This document shows, piece after piece, positions 15,554-26,742 of a stretch of 41,388 bases of DNA; positions within the stretch are counted from its first letter, which is position 1, and each line of letters starts with the position of its first letter. Both the position numbers and the translations under genes were made by a program. Where the stretch lies: positions 1 through 41,388 of the IMG/VR virus record IMGVR_UViG_3300047409_000603, one strand, 5' to 3'. The notes beneath the pieces are model-generated. The model ran no database searches. It saw only the letters and a list, made by a program, of their open reading frames with translations, and was not told the DNA's origin. This DNA is from a virus.

Positions 15554-15903
15554 GGCTGCATCACCGCATGGTGCATGCCGGCGCAATGGGCGCGCTCGTG
15601 GCGATCGACGATGGCCGTCTGCGCGTCGGTCAGGCCATTGGCGATGTAGATGAAGCAGGTGTCGTTCTTCGTGAAGGCGCAGCCCCAATAGCGCAGACGC
15701 TCTGTCGGCTGCAGGCTGCACCAAGCGGGGATATCGTTGATGTCAACGAACTGTTCCCAGACCGGGTGAAGCGGCTTGGCCTTGCGCCATTGCGGCGTCA
15801 GTTGATCGCTGAAGACCTCATCCTTGCCGGGCAGGGTCTGCCAGGCGTGGGCGGGGAGGGCGACGGCGATGAGCGCCGCGGCGAGCAGGAGGCGGCGGAT
15901 CAT
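15550..15903 (-). CDS. Exported protein with HExxHxxGxxH metalloprotease-like motif, 117 aa
   Basis: A signal peptide (MIRRLLLAAALIAVALPAHA) precedes a mature domain of about 97 residues. Near the C-terminus it reads HERAHCAGMHH, an exact HExxHxxGxxH zinc-binding signature as in metzincins. Cysteines at WCSL, WGCAF, DTCF and AHCAG may add disulfides. The protein is much smaller than any classical metzincin, so it could be a minimal peptidase or a fold that kept the site. Similar short phage and plasmid proteins with a 'HE.AHC.GW..H' end are familiar to me but have no known function. Starts in an ATGA overlap. Confidence 0.7.
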   Translation of the reverse strand: MIRRLLLAAALIAVALPAHAWQTLPGKDEVFSDQLTPQWRKAKPLHPVWEQFVDINDIPAWCSLQPTERLRYWGCAFTKNDTCFIYIANGLTDAQTAIVDRHERAHCAGMHHAVMQP

Positions 15904-16292
15904 CGGTCTTGCTCGAACTTGGCGCGGTAGTGGTCGCGAGTTTCGTCGTCGTGATCGAGCTTGGCCCAGACATCGCGCGCCCATTGCTGGTCGCGGATGC
16001 GCTGCCGGTCGGCGTTGCATTCCTCCCGAGCATCATCAAAGGCGTCGTCCGAGGTGACAAACGGACCCTCGTGCCGGCTGGGACGTCCGATGCGGCCCCA
16101 ATACCAACCGGTATCGATGCCGTTACCGTTGTCGTCGATGTCGGCGTCCATCCAATAGACATTGAACTCACCGGCGACGCAGCAGCCTTCACGGCTGTCC
16201 TCGGTCGGGTCGGGGGAATGGGTGGGGGAGATTTCCAGGGGCAGCATGGTCGTGGCTCGTTCTCCAGATCGTCCGGGGTGTCCGGACTGCAT
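15900..16292 (-). CDS. First gene of the leftward operon, acidic protein, 130 aa
   Basis: The ATG at 16292 lies exactly at the predicted start of transcription from the leftward promoter (-10 at 16300-16305), so the mRNA would be leaderless. The protein begins MQSGHPGRSGERATTM; an internal ATG at 16247 is a possible second start, with GGAG 14 bases upstream. The body is acidic (EFNVYWMDADIDDNGNGIDTGWYWGRIG, then helical DQQWARDVWAKLDHDDETRDHY). No known domain. As first product of the early operon it may act early on the host. Confidence 0.65.
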   Translation of the reverse strand: MQSGHPGRSGERATTMLPLEISPTHSPDPTEDSREGCCVAGEFNVYWMDADIDDNGNGIDTGWYWGRIGRPSRHEGPFVTSDDAFDDAREECNADRQRIRDQQWARDVWAKLDHDDETRDHYRAKFEQDR

Positions 16293-16299
16293 GAGGAGA

Positions 16300-16318
16300 A
16301 TGATAGTGCAGCTAACAA
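16300..16318 (-). promoter_or_regulatory. Operator in the leftward promoter
   Basis: TTGTTAGCTGCACTATCAT lies in the spacer and -10 region of the leftward promoter. It matches the right operator at 16 of 19 positions. The shared core is TTGTTAG-N4-ACTRTC, with a TAG-N5-CTA dyad. A protein bound here would block RNA polymerase. The likely ligands are the repressor and Cro-like proteins encoded alongside. Confidence 0.65.
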
Positions 16319-16328
16319 AGGAGTGCAA
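16300..16328 (-). promoter_or_regulatory. Leftward early promoter, PL-like
   Basis: On the minus strand TTGCAC (16328-16323) is followed after exactly 17 bases by TATCAT (16305-16300). The predicted start of transcription, 7 bases beyond, falls at 16293-16292 on the ATG of the first leftward gene, so no ribosome binding site precedes it. The rightward promoter at 16805 has the same hexamers but one base, the same spacing and the same distance to its ATG. Confidence 0.75.
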
Positions 16329-16404
16329 TAGGGGGAGGCAAAAAAAAGTTAGTATGGCTCACAGAATATGGCCAAACGGCAGATTTGCCAAGCGGGCTGC
16401 GGCT

Positions 16405-16764
16405 TTAGCGGTGCTTGCGGAAAGCCTCGATGATCGCCGTCAGGCGTTCCTGGTCGTCGGCGGGCATCCGGCGCACGTTGTCCCAGACCGACCAGAGCTC
16501 TGAGTTGGGATCGCGCATGATCAGATCGGCCGGCTCGCATCTAAGAGCGACCGCCAGGGCTTCAAGCATTGTCTGCGTATAGTTTACCAAGCCGCGCTCG
16601 AGCTGAGAGAGAGCGCCGTGGGTGACGCCAGTCATTTCAGCGAGCTGTTCTTGAGTGTATCCGCGATAGAGTCGCCACTCCTTGATGAAATGACGCGGCG
16701 GGCGACGCTTGGCGAGAGGCTGTACTTTAGCCATGCCGGCAGTGTGTTGCACGGCGGCGGTCAT
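16405..16764 (-). CDS. XRE-family phage repressor, CI-like, 119 aa
   Basis: A helix-turn-helix XRE domain occupies residues 26-82 (FIKEWRLYRGYTQEQLAEMTGVTHGALSQLERGL), with the recognition helix near THGALSQLE. A short C-terminal segment follows (DNVRRMPADDQERLTAIIEAF), probably for dimerisation; there is no LexA-like peptidase domain, so SOS-triggered self-cleavage is not expected. It lies between the two divergent early promoters, as CI does between PL and PR. ATG 16764 lies just downstream of the third operator; ATG 16734 (MAKVQPL) is an alternative. Neither has a good RBS. Confidence 0.82.
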   Translation of the reverse strand: MTAAVQHTAGMAKVQPLAKRRPPRHFIKEWRLYRGYTQEQLAEMTGVTHGALSQLERGLVNYTQTMLEALAVALRCEPADLIMRDPNSELWSVWDNVRRMPADDQERLTAIIEAFRKHR

Positions 16765-16768
16765 CTAC

Positions 16769-16787
16769 CAGACAGTCCCTCTAACAA
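16769..16787 (-). promoter_or_regulatory. Third operator, upstream of the repressor gene
   Basis: TTGTTAGAGGGACTGTCTG on the minus strand keeps the TTGTTAG-N4-ACTRTC core found in both early promoters. It lies 4 bases before ATG 16764, but no good -10 or -35 accompanies it. It could be an autoregulatory site for the repressor gene, comparable in position to OR3 or PRM. Confidence 0.5.
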
Positions 16788-16804
16788 AAAAGCCTCGCCG
16801 GGAC

Positions 16805-16833
16805 TTGCAGAAGGTTGTTAGTGGTACTATCAT
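16805..16833 (+). promoter_or_regulatory. Rightward early promoter, PR-like, with embedded operator
   Basis: TTGCAG (16805-16810), 17 bases, TATCAT (16828-16833). The operator TTGTTAGTGGTACTATCAT (16815-16833) sits in the spacer and -10. The predicted start of transcription at about 16840-16841 coincides with an ATG at 16841, so the cro-like mRNA would be leaderless, like lambda cI from PRM. Confidence 0.75.
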
Positions 16834-16840
16834 CATGGCC

Positions 16841-17050
16841 ATGATAGATATTCAGTCTGTGTTTTCGGGAGAGCGTGGCTTGCGGCTCAGGGTGGCCAAA
16901 ACCCTGAAGATCACGCATGGCGCGGTTTCACAGTGGCGACGGGTGCCGGTTGAGCGCGTGCTCGATGTGGAAAAGATCACGGGCATACCTCGCCATGTGC
17001 TGCGCCCGGACATTTATCCGCCGAACGACCGGGAAACCGGCGCCGCCTAA
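16841..17050 (+). CDS. Cro/YdaS-like regulator, 69 aa
   Basis: A small helix-turn-helix protein (LRLRVAKTLKITHGAVSQWRRVPVERVLDVEKITGIPRHVLRPDIYP) of the YdaS/Cro type, which binds operators and shuts down the repressor gene. Two in-frame ATGs exist: 16835 (MAMID) and 16841 (MIDIQS). I chose 16841 because it is exactly where transcription from the promoter should begin, the same distance as in the leftward promoter. It is the first gene of the rightward early operon and divergent from the repressor. Confidence 0.8.
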   Translation: MIDIQSVFSGERGLRLRVAKTLKITHGAVSQWRRVPVERVLDVEKITGIPRHVLRPDIYPPNDRETGAA

Positions 17051-17070: not shown

Positions 17071-17592
17071 ATGAGTGGCTTCATTTATGCCATTGCTGCG
17101 GGTGAGGTGGTGAAGATCGGCTATTCACGCGATCCGCAAAAACGGTTTGCAAAGCTAAAAACAGACAATTCTACCCCCTGTCATCTCATTGGCTTTGTTG
17201 CGGGAACGCTGGTTGAGGAAAAGGAACTTCATCGCAAGTTCAAACCGTGGCGGGTTTATCGGGAATGGTTCCACAACACGGGACCGGTTCACGAATTTTG
17301 CGCGGCAATTCGCTTGCCCCTGGCGCCGACACAAAAACGAGGTCGGAGACCAACGACAAAGCCTAGCAATCCGCTTCATTATTGGACCTTGGCCGAAGAC
17401 TTGACCGACGCCGAGTTGGCCCTGGCAGTTGGGCGCGAACGTTCGACGATCACCAAGATTCGGCTTGGACAAGCAATGCCGTCGCTCGAGCTCGCTTTGA
17501 GTCTCGAGAAGGTGTCGCGGGGCGCGGTGCCGGCCAACTCATACAAGCGCATCAAGTCCCAACAGAGTGGGATCGCCGCCTTGGCGGATTAG
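17071..17592 (+). CDS. T5orf172/MUG113 (GIY-YIG-like) nuclease domain fused to a helix-turn-helix, 173 aa
   Basis: Residues 1-80 match the GIY-YIG-related T5orf172/MUG113 domain: SGFIYAI, VVKIGYSRDPQKRFAKLKT, an LHRKF helix and REWFHNTG. Residues about 105-160 look like an XRE-type DNA-binding helix-turn-helix (LAEDLTDAELALAVGRERSTITKIRLGQAMPSLELALSLEKV). A nuclease joined to a specific DNA-binding head suggests either a DNA-targeting endonuclease or a regulator that kept only the fold. It follows the cro-like gene by 20 bases. The exact activity is not evident. Confidence 0.75.
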   Translation: MSGFIYAIAAGEVVKIGYSRDPQKRFAKLKTDNSTPCHLIGFVAGTLVEEKELHRKFKPWRVYREWFHNTGPVHEFCAAIRLPLAPTQKRGRRPTTKPSNPLHYWTLAEDLTDAELALAVGRERSTITKIRLGQAMPSLELALSLEKVSRGAVPANSYKRIKSQQSGIAALAD

Positions 17593-17660
17593 TGGCGCAG
17601 CGTCGTGCGTTTGTCCAAGCGTTTGAAAAAACATGGTTAATTGCGGCGGAGGAGGCGGCA

Positions 17661-18026
17661 ATGGCGCGCAAGGCATTGGCGGGCAACAAGATCGACCCGG
17701 ACGTTGCCGACCGATACGTCCAGCGGATCGAGCAGCTGCTCGACGACATAGCGACGATGCGGGCGGAGAATGCCGAGCGCTGCGGAAACATCCGCGAGGA
17801 CATCAAAGAGATCTACCACGACGCCCGGGAGGCGGGGCTGGCGCCCAAGCCGCTCAAGGCGCTGATCCGGGTGCGCGAGTTGAGCCGCAAGCAGCATGCG
17901 GTGCGCAAAAAGCTTGATCTGGATCAATTAGCTGAGTTCGAACAGCTCGTTGAAGCGCTCGGCGAGTTTGCCGAGACGCCGCTCGGCGAGGCGGCGGTCT
18001 TGGCGGCCGAGCCGACCCGGGCATGA
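17661..18026 (+). CDS. GapR-like (DUF2312) nucleoid protein, 121 aa
   Basis: The pattern RYVQRIEQLLDDIATM (helix), EDIKEIYHDAREAGLAPKPLKALIRVRELSRKQ and LDQLAEFEQLVEALGEFAETPLGEAA fits DUF2312, the family of Caulobacter GapR, a protein that clamps overtwisted DNA and supports replication. The chosen ATG at 17661 has GGAGG about 6 bases before it; the open frame extends further upstream with no sensible start. It ends three bases before dcm. A phage copy might act on host or phage replication; that is inference. Confidence 0.82.
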   Translation: MARKALAGNKIDPDVADRYVQRIEQLLDDIATMRAENAERCGNIREDIKEIYHDAREAGLAPKPLKALIRVRELSRKQHAVRKKLDLDQLAEFEQLVEALGEFAETPLGEAAVLAAEPTRA

Positions 18027-18029
18027 GCC

Positions 18030-18779
18030 ATGCTCCGCACCCTGGACCTCTTCTCGGGCATTGGCGGCTTCTCGCTCGGTCTTGAGCGCACGGGTGGTTT
18101 CCGCACGGTCGCCTTCTGCGAGATAGAGCCTTTCTGCCGTCGCGTGCTCAAGAAGCATTGGCCCGATGTTCCGCAATACGATGATGTTGTGAGCGTTGAT
18201 TTTCACCGAGGCGAGGCGGATGTCATTACTGCGGGATTCCCCTGCCAAGATATTTCTTACGCAGGCCGTGGCGCCGGACTTGCCGGCGAGCGTTCGGGAT
18301 TGTTTTGGGAGGTCATACGAGCCGTTCGCTTGGTGGGACCCGTCTACGTCTTGCTGGAGAACGTGGCAGCGCTCCTTGATCGAGGGCTGGACGTTGTTTG
18401 CGCAGCCTTGGCCTCTTGCGGGTATGACACGGAATGGGATTGCGTGGGCGCGGATAGGATTGGCGCCTCCCAGCACAGAGAGCGTCTCTGGATATTGGCA
18501 TACGCCAACAACCCGAGACGCCAAGGGCCAATCTGGGCGGGGCAATCGCATCAAACGCGGTCGGAATGGCAAACTCCACATTGCGAACCTCTGCGATCAA
18601 CTCGTGGATTCTGGCCGCCCGGACCTCGTGCGGTCGCCAACATTCCGAGAATGGTTGATGGGCCTGCCAATCGGGCACACCGTCTTAGAGCCCTCGGAAA
18701 CGCCGTAGTACCCCAGATTCCGGAGCTGATCGGCCGCGCCGTCCTTGCCTCGCTTCGCTCCGAACCGGTCGGGGCATGA
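18030..18779 (+). CDS. C5-cytosine DNA methyltransferase, 249 aa
   Basis: The conserved motifs of a Dcm-type enzyme appear in order: I DLFSGIGG (6-13), IV GFPCQDIS with catalytic Cys72, VI ENV (110-112), VIII QHRERLWI (148-155) and X LGNAVVPQI near residue 225. It transfers methyl from AdoMet to cytosine C5. At 249 residues it is short, with a target-recognition region of only about 60-70 residues. A second long frame (18220-18708) overlaps it. It probably protects the phage from host restriction or alters promoters. Confidence 0.92.
   Translation: MLRTLDLFSGIGGFSLGLERTGGFRTVAFCEIEPFCRRVLKKHWPDVPQYDDVVSVDFHRGEADVITAGFPCQDISYAGRGAGLAGERSGLFWEVIRAVRLVGPVYVLLENVAALLDRGLDVVCAALASCGYDTEWDCVGADRIGASQHRERLWILAYANNPRRQGPIWAGQSHQTRSEWQTPHCEPLRSTRGFWPPGPRAVANIPRMVDGPANRAHRLRALGNAVVPQIPELIGRAVLASLRSEPVGA
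18220..18708 (+). CDS. Overlapping reading frame inside dcm, 162 aa, resembling a known phage protein
   Basis: In the +1 frame relative to dcm an uninterrupted 162 codons read MSLLRDSPAKIFLTQ, then PFAWWDPSTSCWRTWQRSL, PWPLAGMTRNGIAWAR, YWHTPTTRDAKGQSG and finally FREWLMGLPIGHT-LEPSETP. This string of motifs (SxWRTxQ.SL, WP.SGM.RNG, PTP.ARDxK, EWLMGxPIGxT) matches a protein type I have seen annotated beside phage cytosine methylases. Thus two recognisable families may share one DNA stretch. A real overlapping gene is plausible, but the frame has only a weak RBS, and some database proteins of this kind may themselves be mis-called frames. Confidence 0.45.
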   Translation: MSLLRDSPAKIFLTQAVAPDLPASVRDCFGRSYEPFAWWDPSTSCWRTWQRSLIEGWTLFAQPWPLAGMTRNGIAWARIGLAPPSTESVSGYWHTPTTRDAKGQSGRGNRIKRGRNGKLHIANLCDQLVDSGRPDLVRSPTFREWLMGLPIGHTVLEPSETP

Positions 18780-18782
18780 GCC

Positions 18783-19331
18783 ATGCGCTGGCCGCCGGGG
18801 ATATTGCTCGGATTAGACCTCGGGTCACGTACTGGCGTTGCCATTGGCCGCTCGGATGATGTGCCGCGGTGCTGGTCGGTAGAGTTCGGCGCGGACTTTG
18901 ACGAGCACGGCCGGCTGTTTCACGCGCTGGGTAGCTGGCTGCGCATAGCGCTGCGGGACTGGGGCATCGACGGGGTGGCGTTCGAGGCGACGCTGCCCTT
19001 TCCGGCATATCGCAAGCTTGGCACCAGCGAGGCGGCGGTGCTGGTTGCGCACGGCATGCGGGCGATTGTCGAGGAGGCGTGCTACGGCGCCGGCATACGC
19101 TGTGAAGCGCTACCGGTGATCAGCATCCGCAAGCACTTCATTGGGATGGCATCGGCTGGGAGCAGGGAGGCGACGAAGCTCGCCGTGGTGCGCCGTGCGC
19201 GCAGCCTTGGTTTCATCGGGCCACGGAACCATGACGATGACGCGGCCGACGCGGCCGCCTGCTGGGACCTGGCCGCGCATACGCTGATGGCGCGGCAGCC
19301 CAAGGTGCTGGCCATGTGGGGGGGCGGCTGA
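18783..19331 (+). CDS. RuvC-like Holliday junction resolvase, 182 aa
   Basis: A RuvC/RNase H-fold endonuclease. The acidic residues typical of the site are present: Asp12 in LGLDLGSRTG, Glu near 68 in GVAFEATLPF, and a C-terminal HDDDAADAAA cluster. It would resolve branched recombination or replication intermediates before packaging, complementing the ERF/Exo/NinB module on the other operon. Its stop overlaps the next start (TGATG). Confidence 0.85.
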   Translation: MRWPPGILLGLDLGSRTGVAIGRSDDVPRCWSVEFGADFDEHGRLFHALGSWLRIALRDWGIDGVAFEATLPFPAYRKLGTSEAAVLVAHGMRAIVEEACYGAGIRCEALPVISIRKHFIGMASAGSREATKLAVVRRARSLGFIGPRNHDDDAADAAACWDLAAHTLMARQPKVLAMWGGG

Positions 19332-19915
19332 TGGATTGGCCGTTCGGCGAGCTTGAGCGGGGCAAGTACGGGGCTATCCTCGCCGATCCGCCGTGGCGAT
19401 TTGAAGCGTGGAGCGGCAAAGGGAAGGCACGCGCCGCTGACAACCATTATGACACGGCATCGACGGGCGCCATTGCAGAGCTTCCTGTCTTTGAACTTGC
19501 CGCTGAAAGCGCGGCACTTTTTCTGTGGGCTTGCTGGCCGACATTGGCTGATGCCTTCCGAGTCATCGAGGATTGGGGCTTCGCTTACAAGACGTGCGCC
19601 TTCTCATGGATGAAGGCTGATCCCTACCGACTCTTTGCCGACGACAAAACTCCCTTTGCCGGGATGGGTTACTGGACACGTGCCAACACCGAGCCTTGCC
19701 TGCTGGCGACGCGTGGCAAGCCTAAGCGTCTCAATGCCGATGTGCGTCAGGGCATTATAGCGCCACGGCGCGAGCACAGCCGCAAGCCGGACGGCATCCA
19801 CGAACGCATCGAGCGATTGGTAGCCGGCCCCTACGTCGAGCTGTTCGCCCGCCAGCGTCGTCCCGGCTGGGATTGCTGGGGCAACGAGCTAGACAAGTTC
19901 GCGGAGGGCGGCTGA
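19331..19915 (+). CDS. MT-A70 family N6-adenine DNA methyltransferase, 194 aa
   Basis: An adenine-N6 methyltransferase of the MT-A70/Ime4 type with the diagnostic DPPW (residues 19-22), an AdoMet-binding FLWACWP stretch, and a late PDGIHERIERLVAGPYVELFARQRRPGWDCWGNE, which is characteristic of phage MT-A70 proteins. ATG 19331 was chosen because it overlaps the upstream stop. In Alphaproteobacteria adenine methylation controls GcrA-dependent transcription, and the very next gene is gcrA-like, so the two may work together. Confidence 0.9.
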   Translation: MDWPFGELERGKYGAILADPPWRFEAWSGKGKARAADNHYDTASTGAIAELPVFELAAESAALFLWACWPTLADAFRVIEDWGFAYKTCAFSWMKADPYRLFADDKTPFAGMGYWTRANTEPCLLATRGKPKRLNADVRQGIIAPRREHSRKPDGIHERIERLVAGPYVELFARQRRPGWDCWGNELDKFAEGG

Positions 19916-20412
19916 TGGACGGCACCTGGACGCCTGAGCGCGAGGAGGAGCTCGCCCGGCTGTGGCGCGAGGGCGTCGGTGCGGGCGCGATCGCCGCGTT
20001 GCTGGGTTTCACGCGCAATGCGGTGCTGGGCAAGGTTCATCGGCTGCGGCGGCGGCCGGGTGGGGTGATGCGCTTTGAGGCGCGGGCCACGACGCCGCCG
20101 AAGCGCAAGCCCAAGCGCGTCAAGCGCTACGTGCGGGTGCCGAAGGTCAAGCCGGTGGTGACGCATGCGGCAAAGCACAAGGAGGCAAAGCGAGCCAAAC
20201 CGGACCAGAATGATTTTGCCCGGCAGAAATCCGCCATTCCCGCCGGCCCGCTGACGTTACTGGAGCTGTCGCCGACCAGCTGCCGGTTTATTCTGGGCGA
20301 TGTTAAGGGGCCGCTGACGCTGTTCTGCGGCCGGCCGAAGGACGTGGAGCGTGGCGGGAGCTACTGCGCCGAGCATCGCGACAGGTGCGTGTCACGGCCG
20401 CGGGCGGCATGA
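19915..20412 (+). CDS. GcrA-like cell-cycle transcription regulator, 165 aa
   Basis: N-terminal 50 residues match GcrA: TWTPEREEELARLWREGVGAGAIAALLGFTRNAVLGKVHRLRR, a DNA-binding helix set. The C-terminal end carries the sigma-70-binding-type CRFILGDVKGPLTLFCGRPK...YCAEHRDRC cysteine/histidine pattern. GcrA activates sigma-70 promoters, often at methylated GANTC sites, in the alphaproteobacterial cell cycle. A phage copy next to an adenine methylase suggests redirection of host transcription. Basic linker (TPPKRKPKRVKRYVRVPKVK) between domains. Starts in a TGATG overlap. Confidence 0.88.
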   Translation: MDGTWTPEREEELARLWREGVGAGAIAALLGFTRNAVLGKVHRLRRRPGGVMRFEARATTPPKRKPKRVKRYVRVPKVKPVVTHAAKHKEAKRAKPDQNDFARQKSAIPAGPLTLLELSPTSCRFILGDVKGPLTLFCGRPKDVERGGSYCAEHRDRCVSRPRAA

Positions 20413-23544: not shown

Positions 23545-24105
23545 TTGCCCTGGCACGCCATCGTCACCCGCCCACGCGCCGAGCTCGAAGCCGTCCGCAT
23601 GCTCCAGGACCGCCTCGGCCTGCGCACGTTCCTCCCGCAGCACTGGGTGTGGGTCAGCCACGCACGTCGACGCGAGCAGTTGCCCAGACCCCTGTTTCCC
23701 CGCTACATCTTCGCGCTCGCAAGCATCCGCGACAATATCTATGCCGCCAAATCGCTCCCCAACGTCATCGATGTCGTCCGTACCAGCAACCGCCCACTAA
23801 CCATCCCCGATCAAGTCATGGCTGAACTTATCGCCCGCGCCGACCCCGATGGCCTCGTCGGCAGTACCAAAGCCGCCATCGCCGAGCCAGCATTCCGCGT
23901 CGGCGAGTACCGCCACCTCGCCCGCAATGGCCCACTCCACGATCTCATCTGCCAGATCGCCAGCGTTGACAGCGGCAACAGCTTGCGCGTATGGCTGGAA
24001 GCGTTCGGATCCGTGCGCCAAGTGCGGGTCCAGCGCACCAGCCTGGGTGAGGTGGCCGCTTCACCCAGCACTGCGCAGCCTATTGCGGGTCGCGCCCGCA
24101 AATGA
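23545..24105 (+). CDS. NusG/RfaH-like transcription antiterminator, 186 aa
   Basis: The N-terminal domain follows NusG: WHAIVTRPRAELEAVRMLQDRLGLRTFLPQ, then PRPLFPRYIFAL and VIDVVRTSNRPLTIPD. After a linker, a shortened KOW-like end is seen (FRVGEYRHLARNGPLHDLICQIASVDSGNSLRVWLEAFGSVRQVRV). TTG start at 23545 with GGGAGAG 9 bases upstream. NusG paralogues such as RfaH let RNA polymerase read long operons. Lying directly ahead of terminase and the 25-kb late region, it is the best candidate for the late gene regulator. No Q-like gene was seen. Confidence 0.85.
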   Translation: MPWHAIVTRPRAELEAVRMLQDRLGLRTFLPQHWVWVSHARRREQLPRPLFPRYIFALASIRDNIYAAKSLPNVIDVVRTSNRPLTIPDQVMAELIARADPDGLVGSTKAAIAEPAFRVGEYRHLARNGPLHDLICQIASVDSGNSLRVWLEAFGSVRQVRVQRTSLGEVAASPSTAQPIAGRARK

Positions 24106-24537: not shown

Positions 24538-25930
24538 ATGGTGCCGCTATCGGGGGTATGAACCGGCCAAGCATCACCGTATCATCATCGCCGAGATCGA
24601 GGCGTTCCTCACCGATCCAAACCTCGACGTATTACTCCTGTTCGCACCGCCAGGATCGGCGAAGAGTACATACGTATCGGTGCTGTTTCCGTCGTGGTAC
24701 CTCGCACGATATCCGGCTAATCTCATCCTCGCGGCAACTCACTCGGTAGAGTTCGCTCAACGCTGGGGCCGCAAGGTGCGCAATGACATCCAGCTCGAAA
24801 GCGCCACCCTCGGTATCCGGCTACGTGACGATAACCAGGCTGCCGACCGATGGGCACTGGAGACTGGAGGCGAGTACTATGGCGTTGGCGCGGGAGTTGG
24901 TATTGCTGGCTTCCGGGCTGACCTTGGTATCGGAGATGACTTCTTTGGAAGTCGCGAGGATGCCTACAGCGAAACCGTCCGACGCAAGCGATGGGAGTGG
25001 TACCTGGACGATTTCGGGGCCCGCCTCAAGCCCAACGCCAAACGTATCCTGATGATGACACGCTGGCACGAAGAGGATGTAGCCGGCAGGGTATTGGAAC
25101 AGGTCAGGGCGGGTATCGTTCGGGGTAAGACGGTGACGTTTCCCGCCATCGCCGAGGCCAACGATGTACTCGGTCGCGCCGAGGGCGAATACCTCTGGGA
25201 TGAACCCGGCGGGTATGACTACGCGTCGTTCCTGCGTCAGCGGCAACTCGAATCAACCCCGATGATGTGGAGCGCGCTGTATCAACAGCGGCCGGCTCCC
25301 GAAGAGGGCGATTACTTCCGCGCCGAATGGCTGCATACGTATGACATTGCGCCGGCGCGGAATACCCTGCGCATTTATGGCGCATCGGACTACGCCGTCA
25401 CCGGCGACGATGGTGATTACACGGTACACATCGTCGTTGGCCTGGATCCCGACGGCCGCATGTATGTCCTCGACGTCTGGCGCAAGCAGGCCAGCTCGGA
25501 TGCCTGGGTCGAGGCGTTCTGCGACCTTGTGCTCGAGCACAAGCCACTGATGTGGGCCGAGGAGAGCGGCCAGATCAAAGCCGGCGTCGGGCCGTTCCTC
25601 AACCAGCGCATGTTGCAGCGGCGTGCGTTTGTCTCACGTGAAACATTCCCGACGCGGCACGACAAGAGCGTGCGGGCGCAGAGCATGCGGGGGCGGATGG
25701 AGCTCGAGGGGCTGTACCTGCCGCGCAGTGCGCCGTGGCTCGATGCGTTTCGCCGCGAGCTGCTGACGTTCCCGGCAGCGGCGCACGATGATGTTGTCGA
25801 CGCGCTTGGCCTCGTCGGCCAGCTGCTCGACAAGGTCGTGTATGGCGTCAAGCCGGTGGCAATCACCAGGCCGGTGCGGACGGGCTACACCGCGGCGACA
25901 AGGCCAACGCTGAGCATGAAGGTGCTGTGA
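24398..25930 (+). CDS. terL: Terminase large subunit, 510 aa
   Basis: The DNA-packaging motor. ATPase motifs: Walker [10 protein letters not shown] (83-91), Walker B LGIGDD (176-181), coupling [10 protein letters not shown] (221-230). The C-terminal nuclease has Asp331 (GASDYAV), a VVGLDPDG strand and the late [10 protein letters not shown] motif. ATG 24398 gives a conserved-type helical N-terminus ([15 protein letters not shown]... ARKSFSEW) with GAGGAG about 10 bases upstream. It therefore overlaps the small subunit by 140 bp; a later start would lose the N-terminal helix. Headful packaging would fit the P22-like head genes. Confidence 0.93.
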
Positions 25931-26742
25931 TGACGGATGATGTGGACAACGACTTGCTGCACACCACTAACGAGGATGACAGTGGTGACGATCAGGGCGA
26001 GGACGACGACGATCAGGGATCGGACGATGGTGGTGGTCACGACGATGACAACGATGGAGGCTGTGAAGATGGCGATCAGGGACCTCCGGGCCCGCCCGGG
26101 CCTCCTGGACCTCCAGGACCTTCAGGGGAAGATGGTGATCCTGGGCCGCCAGGCCCCCCGGGACCGCCCGGACTGAAGGGCGATGCGGGCGATCCTGGGC
26201 CAGCAGGGCCTCCCGGGCCGATCGGACTGACCGGTGATCCTGGCCCAGTGGGCCCAGTCGGGCCAGCGGGCCCTCCAGGCACAGATGGCACCAACGGTAC
26301 CGACGCGCAGCCGCTCGGAAACTACATCACCGGTACCAAGCTCAGCGACCTGATCGATTCAAGCTTCTGGGATGCCCCGACGCCGTTCGCCGATATCATT
26401 ATCGGCAAGCGCGGCAACGACACGATCCTTGGCGGCGACGGCAATGATTTCATCAGCGGCGGCAAGGGCGCCGATCACCTCATCGGCGGCCATGGTGACG
26501 ACGTCGTACTTGGTGGTCGTGGCCACGACACGTTTGTCTTCGCCGCTGGCGACGGCCACGACAAGTGGCGATTCACTACGAAGGACATTATCGATTTATC
26601 GGGGACAGGTATCGCCAAGTTCGGTGATCTGCATATGACGCAGACGGCGCAGGGGGTGGTGCTCGATCTCGGCGGTGGCGATAGCGTGCTTTTGGCGTTC
26701 CTGCACGTGAATCAGCTTCACGCCAGCGAGTTTCATTTCTGA
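25930..26742 (+). CDS. Acidic collagen-like and RTX-repeat protein, 270 aa
   Basis: Three parts are visible. Residues 1-50 are almost entirely Asp, Glu, Gly and Gln. About 51-125 are uninterrupted Gly-X-Y collagen repeats (GPPGPPGPP and similar). About 155-205 form RTX-type calcium-binding nonapeptides ([30 protein letters not shown]), ending as in haemolysin-type proteins with a [12 protein letters not shown] segment. A trimeric stalk with a calcium-stabilised tip is likely, perhaps a virion surface fibre. It begins in a TGATG overlap with terminase, an unexpected place for a fibre. The RTX end resembles bacterial secreted proteins and may have been captured. Confidence 0.8.

Follow-up and report, generated by a model that had tools for sequence, protein, structure and literature searches.

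The window examined here, the whole 41,388-nt stretch of viral DNA that was analysed, contains two outward-facing promoters, each with an ATG at about the place where transcription would begin. An earlier note had read this arrangement as a switch like that of lambda, in which both outward operons begin with leaderless mRNAs. The locus therefore raises the question of which of its transcripts, rightward, leftward and repressor, begin at their start codons, and whether such an arrangement is kept in related phages.

Genes and Probable Host

The layout is that of lambda, with a repressor gene between the promoters PL and PR and a cro gene divergent from it. The cro gene (16841..17050, + strand) encodes a 69-aa HTH protein of the P22_Cro/YdaS family. 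The product scores above the curated Pfam cut-offs for PF15943 (4.3e-10, 39.7 bits, cut-off 30) and PF14549 (1.7e-9, 37.8 bits, cut-off 30.2), and its relatives start at the same Met. The repressor gene (16405..16734, - strand) encodes a short HTH_3 protein (PF01381, 2.3e-13). Its homologous start, MAK, is at 16734, and a further in-frame ATG is found at 16764. The first leftward gene (15900..16247, - strand) would give 115 aa from ATG 16247 and 130 aa from ATG 16292. No homologue of its product was detected in viral contigs, phage records or fetched loci, and the DNA of the window has no similarity to deposited phages.

Homologues of GcrA (19918-20412, +; PF07750, 6.4e-24) and GapR (17652-18026, +; PF10073, 7.8e-7) are encoded in the early rightward region. 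GcrA and GapR are cell-cycle proteins of alphaproteobacteria, and it is these two homologues alone that point to an alphaproteobacterial host. The early region also encodes a C5 cytosine methylase (18030-18779, +) and an MT-A70 adenine methylase (19316-19915, +). The gene after cro (17071-17592, +) has a T5orf172/MUG113 (GIY-YIG-like) domain and a weak HTH match. A protein of similar type, identified by eye, follows cro in relative L016 (5191-5706), and in L110 the Cro-like match seems to lie within the frame of such a protein. Further downstream, a NusG-family protein (23545-24105, +; PF02357, 1e-12) that could be an antiterminator is encoded directly 5' of the terminase gene, and a reading frame between the terminase and portal genes (25927-26742, +) contains collagen-like triple-helix repeats followed by RTX calcium-binding repeats.

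Promoters and Operators

The PR core (16805..16833, +) consists of a -35 hexamer TTGCAG (16805-16810), a 17-bp spacer and a -10 hexamer TATCAT (16828-16833). The PL core (16300..16328, -), which has equivalents in 30 relatives, consists of TTGCAC, a spacer of the same length and TATCAT. In each, the motif TTGTTAG starts at spacer base 5 and an ATG lies 8 bases past the -10, at 16292 (-) for PL and 16841 (+) for PR. Re-reading of both cores bore out all of these features as the earlier note had given them. Its view that the match is too exact for chance is also upheld: a joint pattern of the 29-bp cores has two matches with 0 mismatches in the window, whereas with up to 3 mismatches the mean in shuffled sequence was 0.03, and two matches occurred in 0/100 shuffles. 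A scan of the window with the standard sigma-70 consensus listed neither core, because TTGCAC, TTGCAG and TATCAT are imperfect hexamers.

The 41 kb contain exactly three copies of TTGTTAG, all of them in the switch region; the third copy (16787-16781, -) was absent from the earlier note. Each copy is followed by a second half-site, giving TGTTAG-N5-CTRTC, and the motif can be regarded as half of a 17-bp imperfect palindrome, TGTTAG-N5-CTATCA, with the ideal form TGTTAG-N5-CTAACA. In relative L018 a perfect palindrome, TGTTAGtggcgCTAACA, is found at the position of O_R1. The right half of the palindrome overlaps the -10 at PL and PR alike, and the shared operator and shared -10 therefore count in part as a single feature. 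O_R1 (16816..16832, +; TGTTAG-TGGTA-CTATCA) lies over the PR -10, and O_R2 (16770..16786, -; TGTTAG-AGGGA-CTGTCT) is 29 bp from it, its centre 44 nt 5' of the repressor ATG. On the other side, O_L1 (16301..16317, -; TGTTAG-CTGCA-CTATCA) lies over the PL -10, and a weak O_L2 (16347..16363, +; AGTTAG-TATGG-CTCACA) is located 29 bp from O_L1, upstream of PL. The two sides thus carry mirror-image cassettes in which 29 bp separate the operators. The two 72-bp cassettes have 36 identical positions, a level reached in 0/20,000 shuffles. In relatives the cro-side gap, judged by eye, is 17-19 bp (L013, L016, L018, L047) compared with 29 bp in the window, a difference of about one helical turn. The same operator at PL and PR, together with the layout and the gene families, supports the proposal of a lambda-like switch with shared operators.

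Both regulators may read this operator. A comparison of 41 phages shows covariation between the recognition helix of Cro and the half-site of its operator (Mantel r 0.53, 0/5000 permutations), and r is 0.47 for pairs <50% identical. The Cro and repressor helices are alike at 3.34 of 7 positions within a phage versus 2.74 between phages (0/5000). In the window they are THGAVSQW for Cro and THGALSQL for the repressor, with THGA and SQ common to both. These comparisons, in which shared ancestry is only partly controlled, support the recognition of TGTTAG by Cro and repressor alike; they also yield a table of recognition helix versus operator half-site for one Cro family. Searching the collection for precisely TGTTAG-N5-CTATCAT-N7-ATG returned 19 stretches that lack the switch layout and have mostly very short frames; these were set aside as unrelated.

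The cro Transcript

Cro relatives were gathered from viral contigs and genomes, with start codons assigned by homology and not by promoter. The main test set comprised 44 viral representatives <80% identical, the window included. The distance from the first base of the -35 TTG to the cro ATG is 35, 36 or 37 nt in 37/44, where 3.1 were expected from other positions (p=5e-36). With the -35 hexamer at about -36, the predicted +1 falls on the cro AUG. The search for conserved promoter-to-ATG spacing suggested in the earlier note thus gave, on the cro side, a -35-to-ATG distance that is kept among relatives. In a wider set the TTG is at leaderless spacing in 44/54 phage-type loci versus 2/22 chromosomal paralogues, a split that was made after viewing the sequences; the test on the 44 viral-contig members does not involve that choice. 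Among the 54, dyads that form at least 4 of 5 pairs have their centre 16 nt before the ATG in 16 loci, 17 nt in 7 and 18 nt in 11. These counts come from ATG-anchored profiles, used in place of a generic dyad search over 200 nt that found other palindromes in many loci. The half-sites vary among phages (TGTTAG, TGAAAG, GTAAG, TTAAG, GTTGCA, TTAGG) and the spacing is constant.

Shine-Dalgarno (SD) pairing is depleted at these genes. The mean energy for the cro relatives is -1.5, weaker than in random DNA (-2.65) and much weaker than at chromosomal paralogues (-4.27). In the window, values of +2.2 kcal/mol at the left ATG 16292 and -2.8 at the right ATG 16841, against the random mean of -2.65, agree with the claim that neither has a ribosome binding site; cro itself is thus without a Shine-Dalgarno sequence. 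A leaderless cro mRNA, its +1 predicted on the A of ATG 16841, is strongly supported by these comparisons as a feature conserved in relatives. A second in-frame cro ATG at 16835, 1 nt past the PR -10, lies upstream of the expected transcript start and would therefore be unusable by a leaderless message. The spacing could serve as a start-codon rule for annotating cro genes of these phages. For example, the Rhizobium phage RHph_I1_23 (L175) has cro annotated from ATG 2471, 9 nt too far upstream of the ATG at the leaderless position (2480).

The chromosomal paralogues form a Cro/YdaS family (MRDxGLxxAI...) found in Rhodospirillaceae, Beijerinckiaceae and others (L051, L053, L054 and others among L057-L091), with SD-led starts unlike those of the phage genes. 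An independent class-wide sample was made up mostly of chromosomal paralogues. Pseudanabaena phage Pam5 (L176), recorded from a cyanobacterium, has an annotated GcrA along with a leaderless-type cro, which suggests that its true host may be an alphaproteobacterial companion.

Leaderless spacing occurs in three named alphaproteobacterial phages (vB_LagS-V1, the Sinorhizobium phage PBC5 and RHph_I1_23), whereas cro relatives are leadered, with SD energies of -4.1 to -8.9, in seven named gammaproteobacterial phages (SEN34, Ab31, Kp4865-4, phi12.4, SaltyDalty, PS-1 and phi18.2). This distribution also fits the view that the leaderless cro, while real, has no regulatory role of its own and that, in hosts able to translate such messages well, a palindromic operator on the -10 beside the start codon is merely a compact arrangement. 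Alphaproteobacteria have many leaderless mRNAs: 171 have been reported in S. meliloti (PMC3616915), 192 Bradyrhizobium transcripts start exactly at start codons (PMC4842269), and in Caulobacter there are 375, with a translation efficiency equal to that of leadered mRNAs (PMC4117421). However, the PL promoters of these phages likewise carry an operator over the -10 and yet appear to retain a leader with an SD, which argues that packing alone does not remove leaders. Compactness as the whole meaning of the trait is accordingly a serious contender that falls somewhat short of an even chance.

The Leftward Transcript

For the left side, a PL-type cassette was defined as an operator like that of PR plus a TTG at the PR-like distance, and was detected in 30 relatives. 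The position equivalent to the PR +1 carries an ATG in 0/30 of them. Three (L103, L135, L148) have an ATG within 3 nt of the +1, and for two of these the frame that follows is short (23 and 6 codons). A later ATG, 10-66 nt downstream of the +1 and with SD pairing at -4.0 or lower, is present in 27/30; in L143 and L153, which are among the 27, this ATG opens a very short frame. The window has a corresponding start at ATG 16247, 45 nt downstream of the PL +1, with an SD energy of -6.4, although its GGAG is 14 nt before the ATG, a longer spacing than usual. An ordinary leader, with translation from ATG 16247, is therefore the most likely arrangement for the leftward gene. The predicted 45-nt leader (16248..16292, -) would contain a 5' AUG that is probably unused, a GUCCGG/CCGGAC hairpin and the GGAG. 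The earlier claim of two leaderless outward operons is thus sustained for cro but not for the left side.

If translation began instead at ATG 16292, both outward operons would be leaderless and the left protein would have 130 aa. That ATG does coincide with the PR-like +1 of PL, lacks an SD and opens the full frame. However, apart from its absence at this position in the relatives, an ATG at one exact position is expected with a frequency of about 1/64. The 15 codons between the two ATGs have a GC3 of 0.53 versus 0.72 for genes and score like a wrong frame, below all but 0.75% of real segments, and a stable 6-bp hairpin almost directly after the 5' AUG covers codons 2-7. Taken together, the left-leader hairpins of the relatives show no excess of stability over shuffled sequence (mean z -0.55), which does not speak for a conserved leader RNA. 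Two leaderless operons are therefore unlikely, and ATG 16292 at the PL +1 is best read as a coincidence in favor of the leadered start at 16247. That both mRNAs are leadered, the promoters being unreal or the starts lying further upstream, is very improbable: the -10 hexamers match the sigma-70 consensus only in part and the consensus scan missed both promoters, but the fixed -35-to-ATG distance would be left unexplained and the right ATG has no SD.

The Repressor Transcript

In lambda, the centre of OR2 is at -42 from the PRM start. The repressor ATG 16734 of the window has no SD, and O_R2 is centred 44 nt upstream of it, which makes a leaderless repressor mRNA, activated from O_R2, probable as well. 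An operator centred 42-44 nt before the homologous repressor ATG is found in the window and in L013, L016, L017 and L047 (the last a prophage in Ancylobacter dichloromethanicus); this distance was not seen in L012, L018 and L048. ATG 16764 has SD-like pairing (-6.3) and the PRM -10 and -35 are poor in the window, which leaves room for a leadered repressor. Only the downstream repressor start is present in L017 and in L045, a prophage in Roseibium suaedae. In the earlier note the logic of lambda, in which the cI mRNA is leaderless, had seemed to be reversed here. With a repressor ATG that lacks an SD and an operator at an OR2-like place, such a reversal is doubtful; since the repressor is probably leaderless as well, that logic would be extended instead.

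Proposed Mechanism

The promoter cores, operators, gene families, -35-to-ATG conservation and covariation of Cro helix and operator are read from the sequence; transcript starts, binding and regulation are deduced from them. A lambda-like immunity region of a temperate alphaproteobacterial phage, with a leaderless cro, a leadered PL operon and a probably leaderless repressor is, on this basis, quite likely as an overall model. Dimers of repressor and of Cro would read the same 17-bp palindrome, and protein bound at O_R1 and O_L1, over the -10 of PR and PL, would block RNA polymerase. A repressor on O_R2, at about -44 from its AUG, could touch polymerase at PRM in the manner of lambda OR2, and the message made there would probably be leaderless. 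The PR transcript would start at the A of the cro AUG, with cro translated from a leaderless mRNA. The PL transcript would start at about 16292 and carry the leader of roughly 45 nt with its SD ahead of ATG 16247.

It is possible, and is offered tentatively, that alphaproteobacterial phages keep an asymmetry of translation mode within the switch, with cro and repressor leaderless and the left lytic operon led by an SD. If so, both regulators would be made once polymerase clears the promoter, without selection by an SD. Because the same Cro family is leadered in gammaproteobacterial phages, the trait would track the translation machinery of the host.

Comparison with Known Systems

Leaderless phage regulators are known already as single cases (lambda cI, PaaR2, PY54 cI and cro). 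The window resembles lambda in layout, in having operators at both outward promoters, in an operator about -42 to -44 from the repressor start and probably in a leaderless repressor mRNA. Unlike in lambda, where cro is leadered, cro in the window is predicted to be leaderless. The repressor also differs: at 110-119 aa it consists of the HTH only, without a peptidase domain, so the C-terminal S24/LexA-like domain of an SOS-cleaved, lambda-type repressor is missing. There are two operators per side, the inner left one weak, and not three.

The immB region of PY54, a telomere phage of Yersinia/E. coli, is also a divergent cI/cro switch, and both transcripts begin at the AUG by RACE (PMC4488713). 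However, the single operator bound by PY54 Cro, OR3, lies upstream of cI, and Cro apparently does not repress its own promoter there, whereas the palindrome of the window sits on the cro -10; the host of PY54 is gammaproteobacterial. In CP-933P a YdaS-family protein likewise acts as Cro, with inverted-repeat operators common to repressor and YdaS, but the mRNA found leaderless by RACE is that of the repressor paaR2, and ydaS mRNA was not reported to be so (PMC8630535). Controller (C) proteins of restriction-modification systems, e.g., C.Csp231I, are small HTH autoregulators with an operator on their own promoter, and many have leaderless mRNAs (PMC4824078); they are not part of a divergent phage switch. 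Judged against the open-access literature, so that an earlier report is possible, what appears to be new is that a YdaS-type switch combines a conserved, leaderless cro with a left operon that is leadered. The cro geometry is kept across dozens of phages whose operators differ, which makes a comparative study possible.
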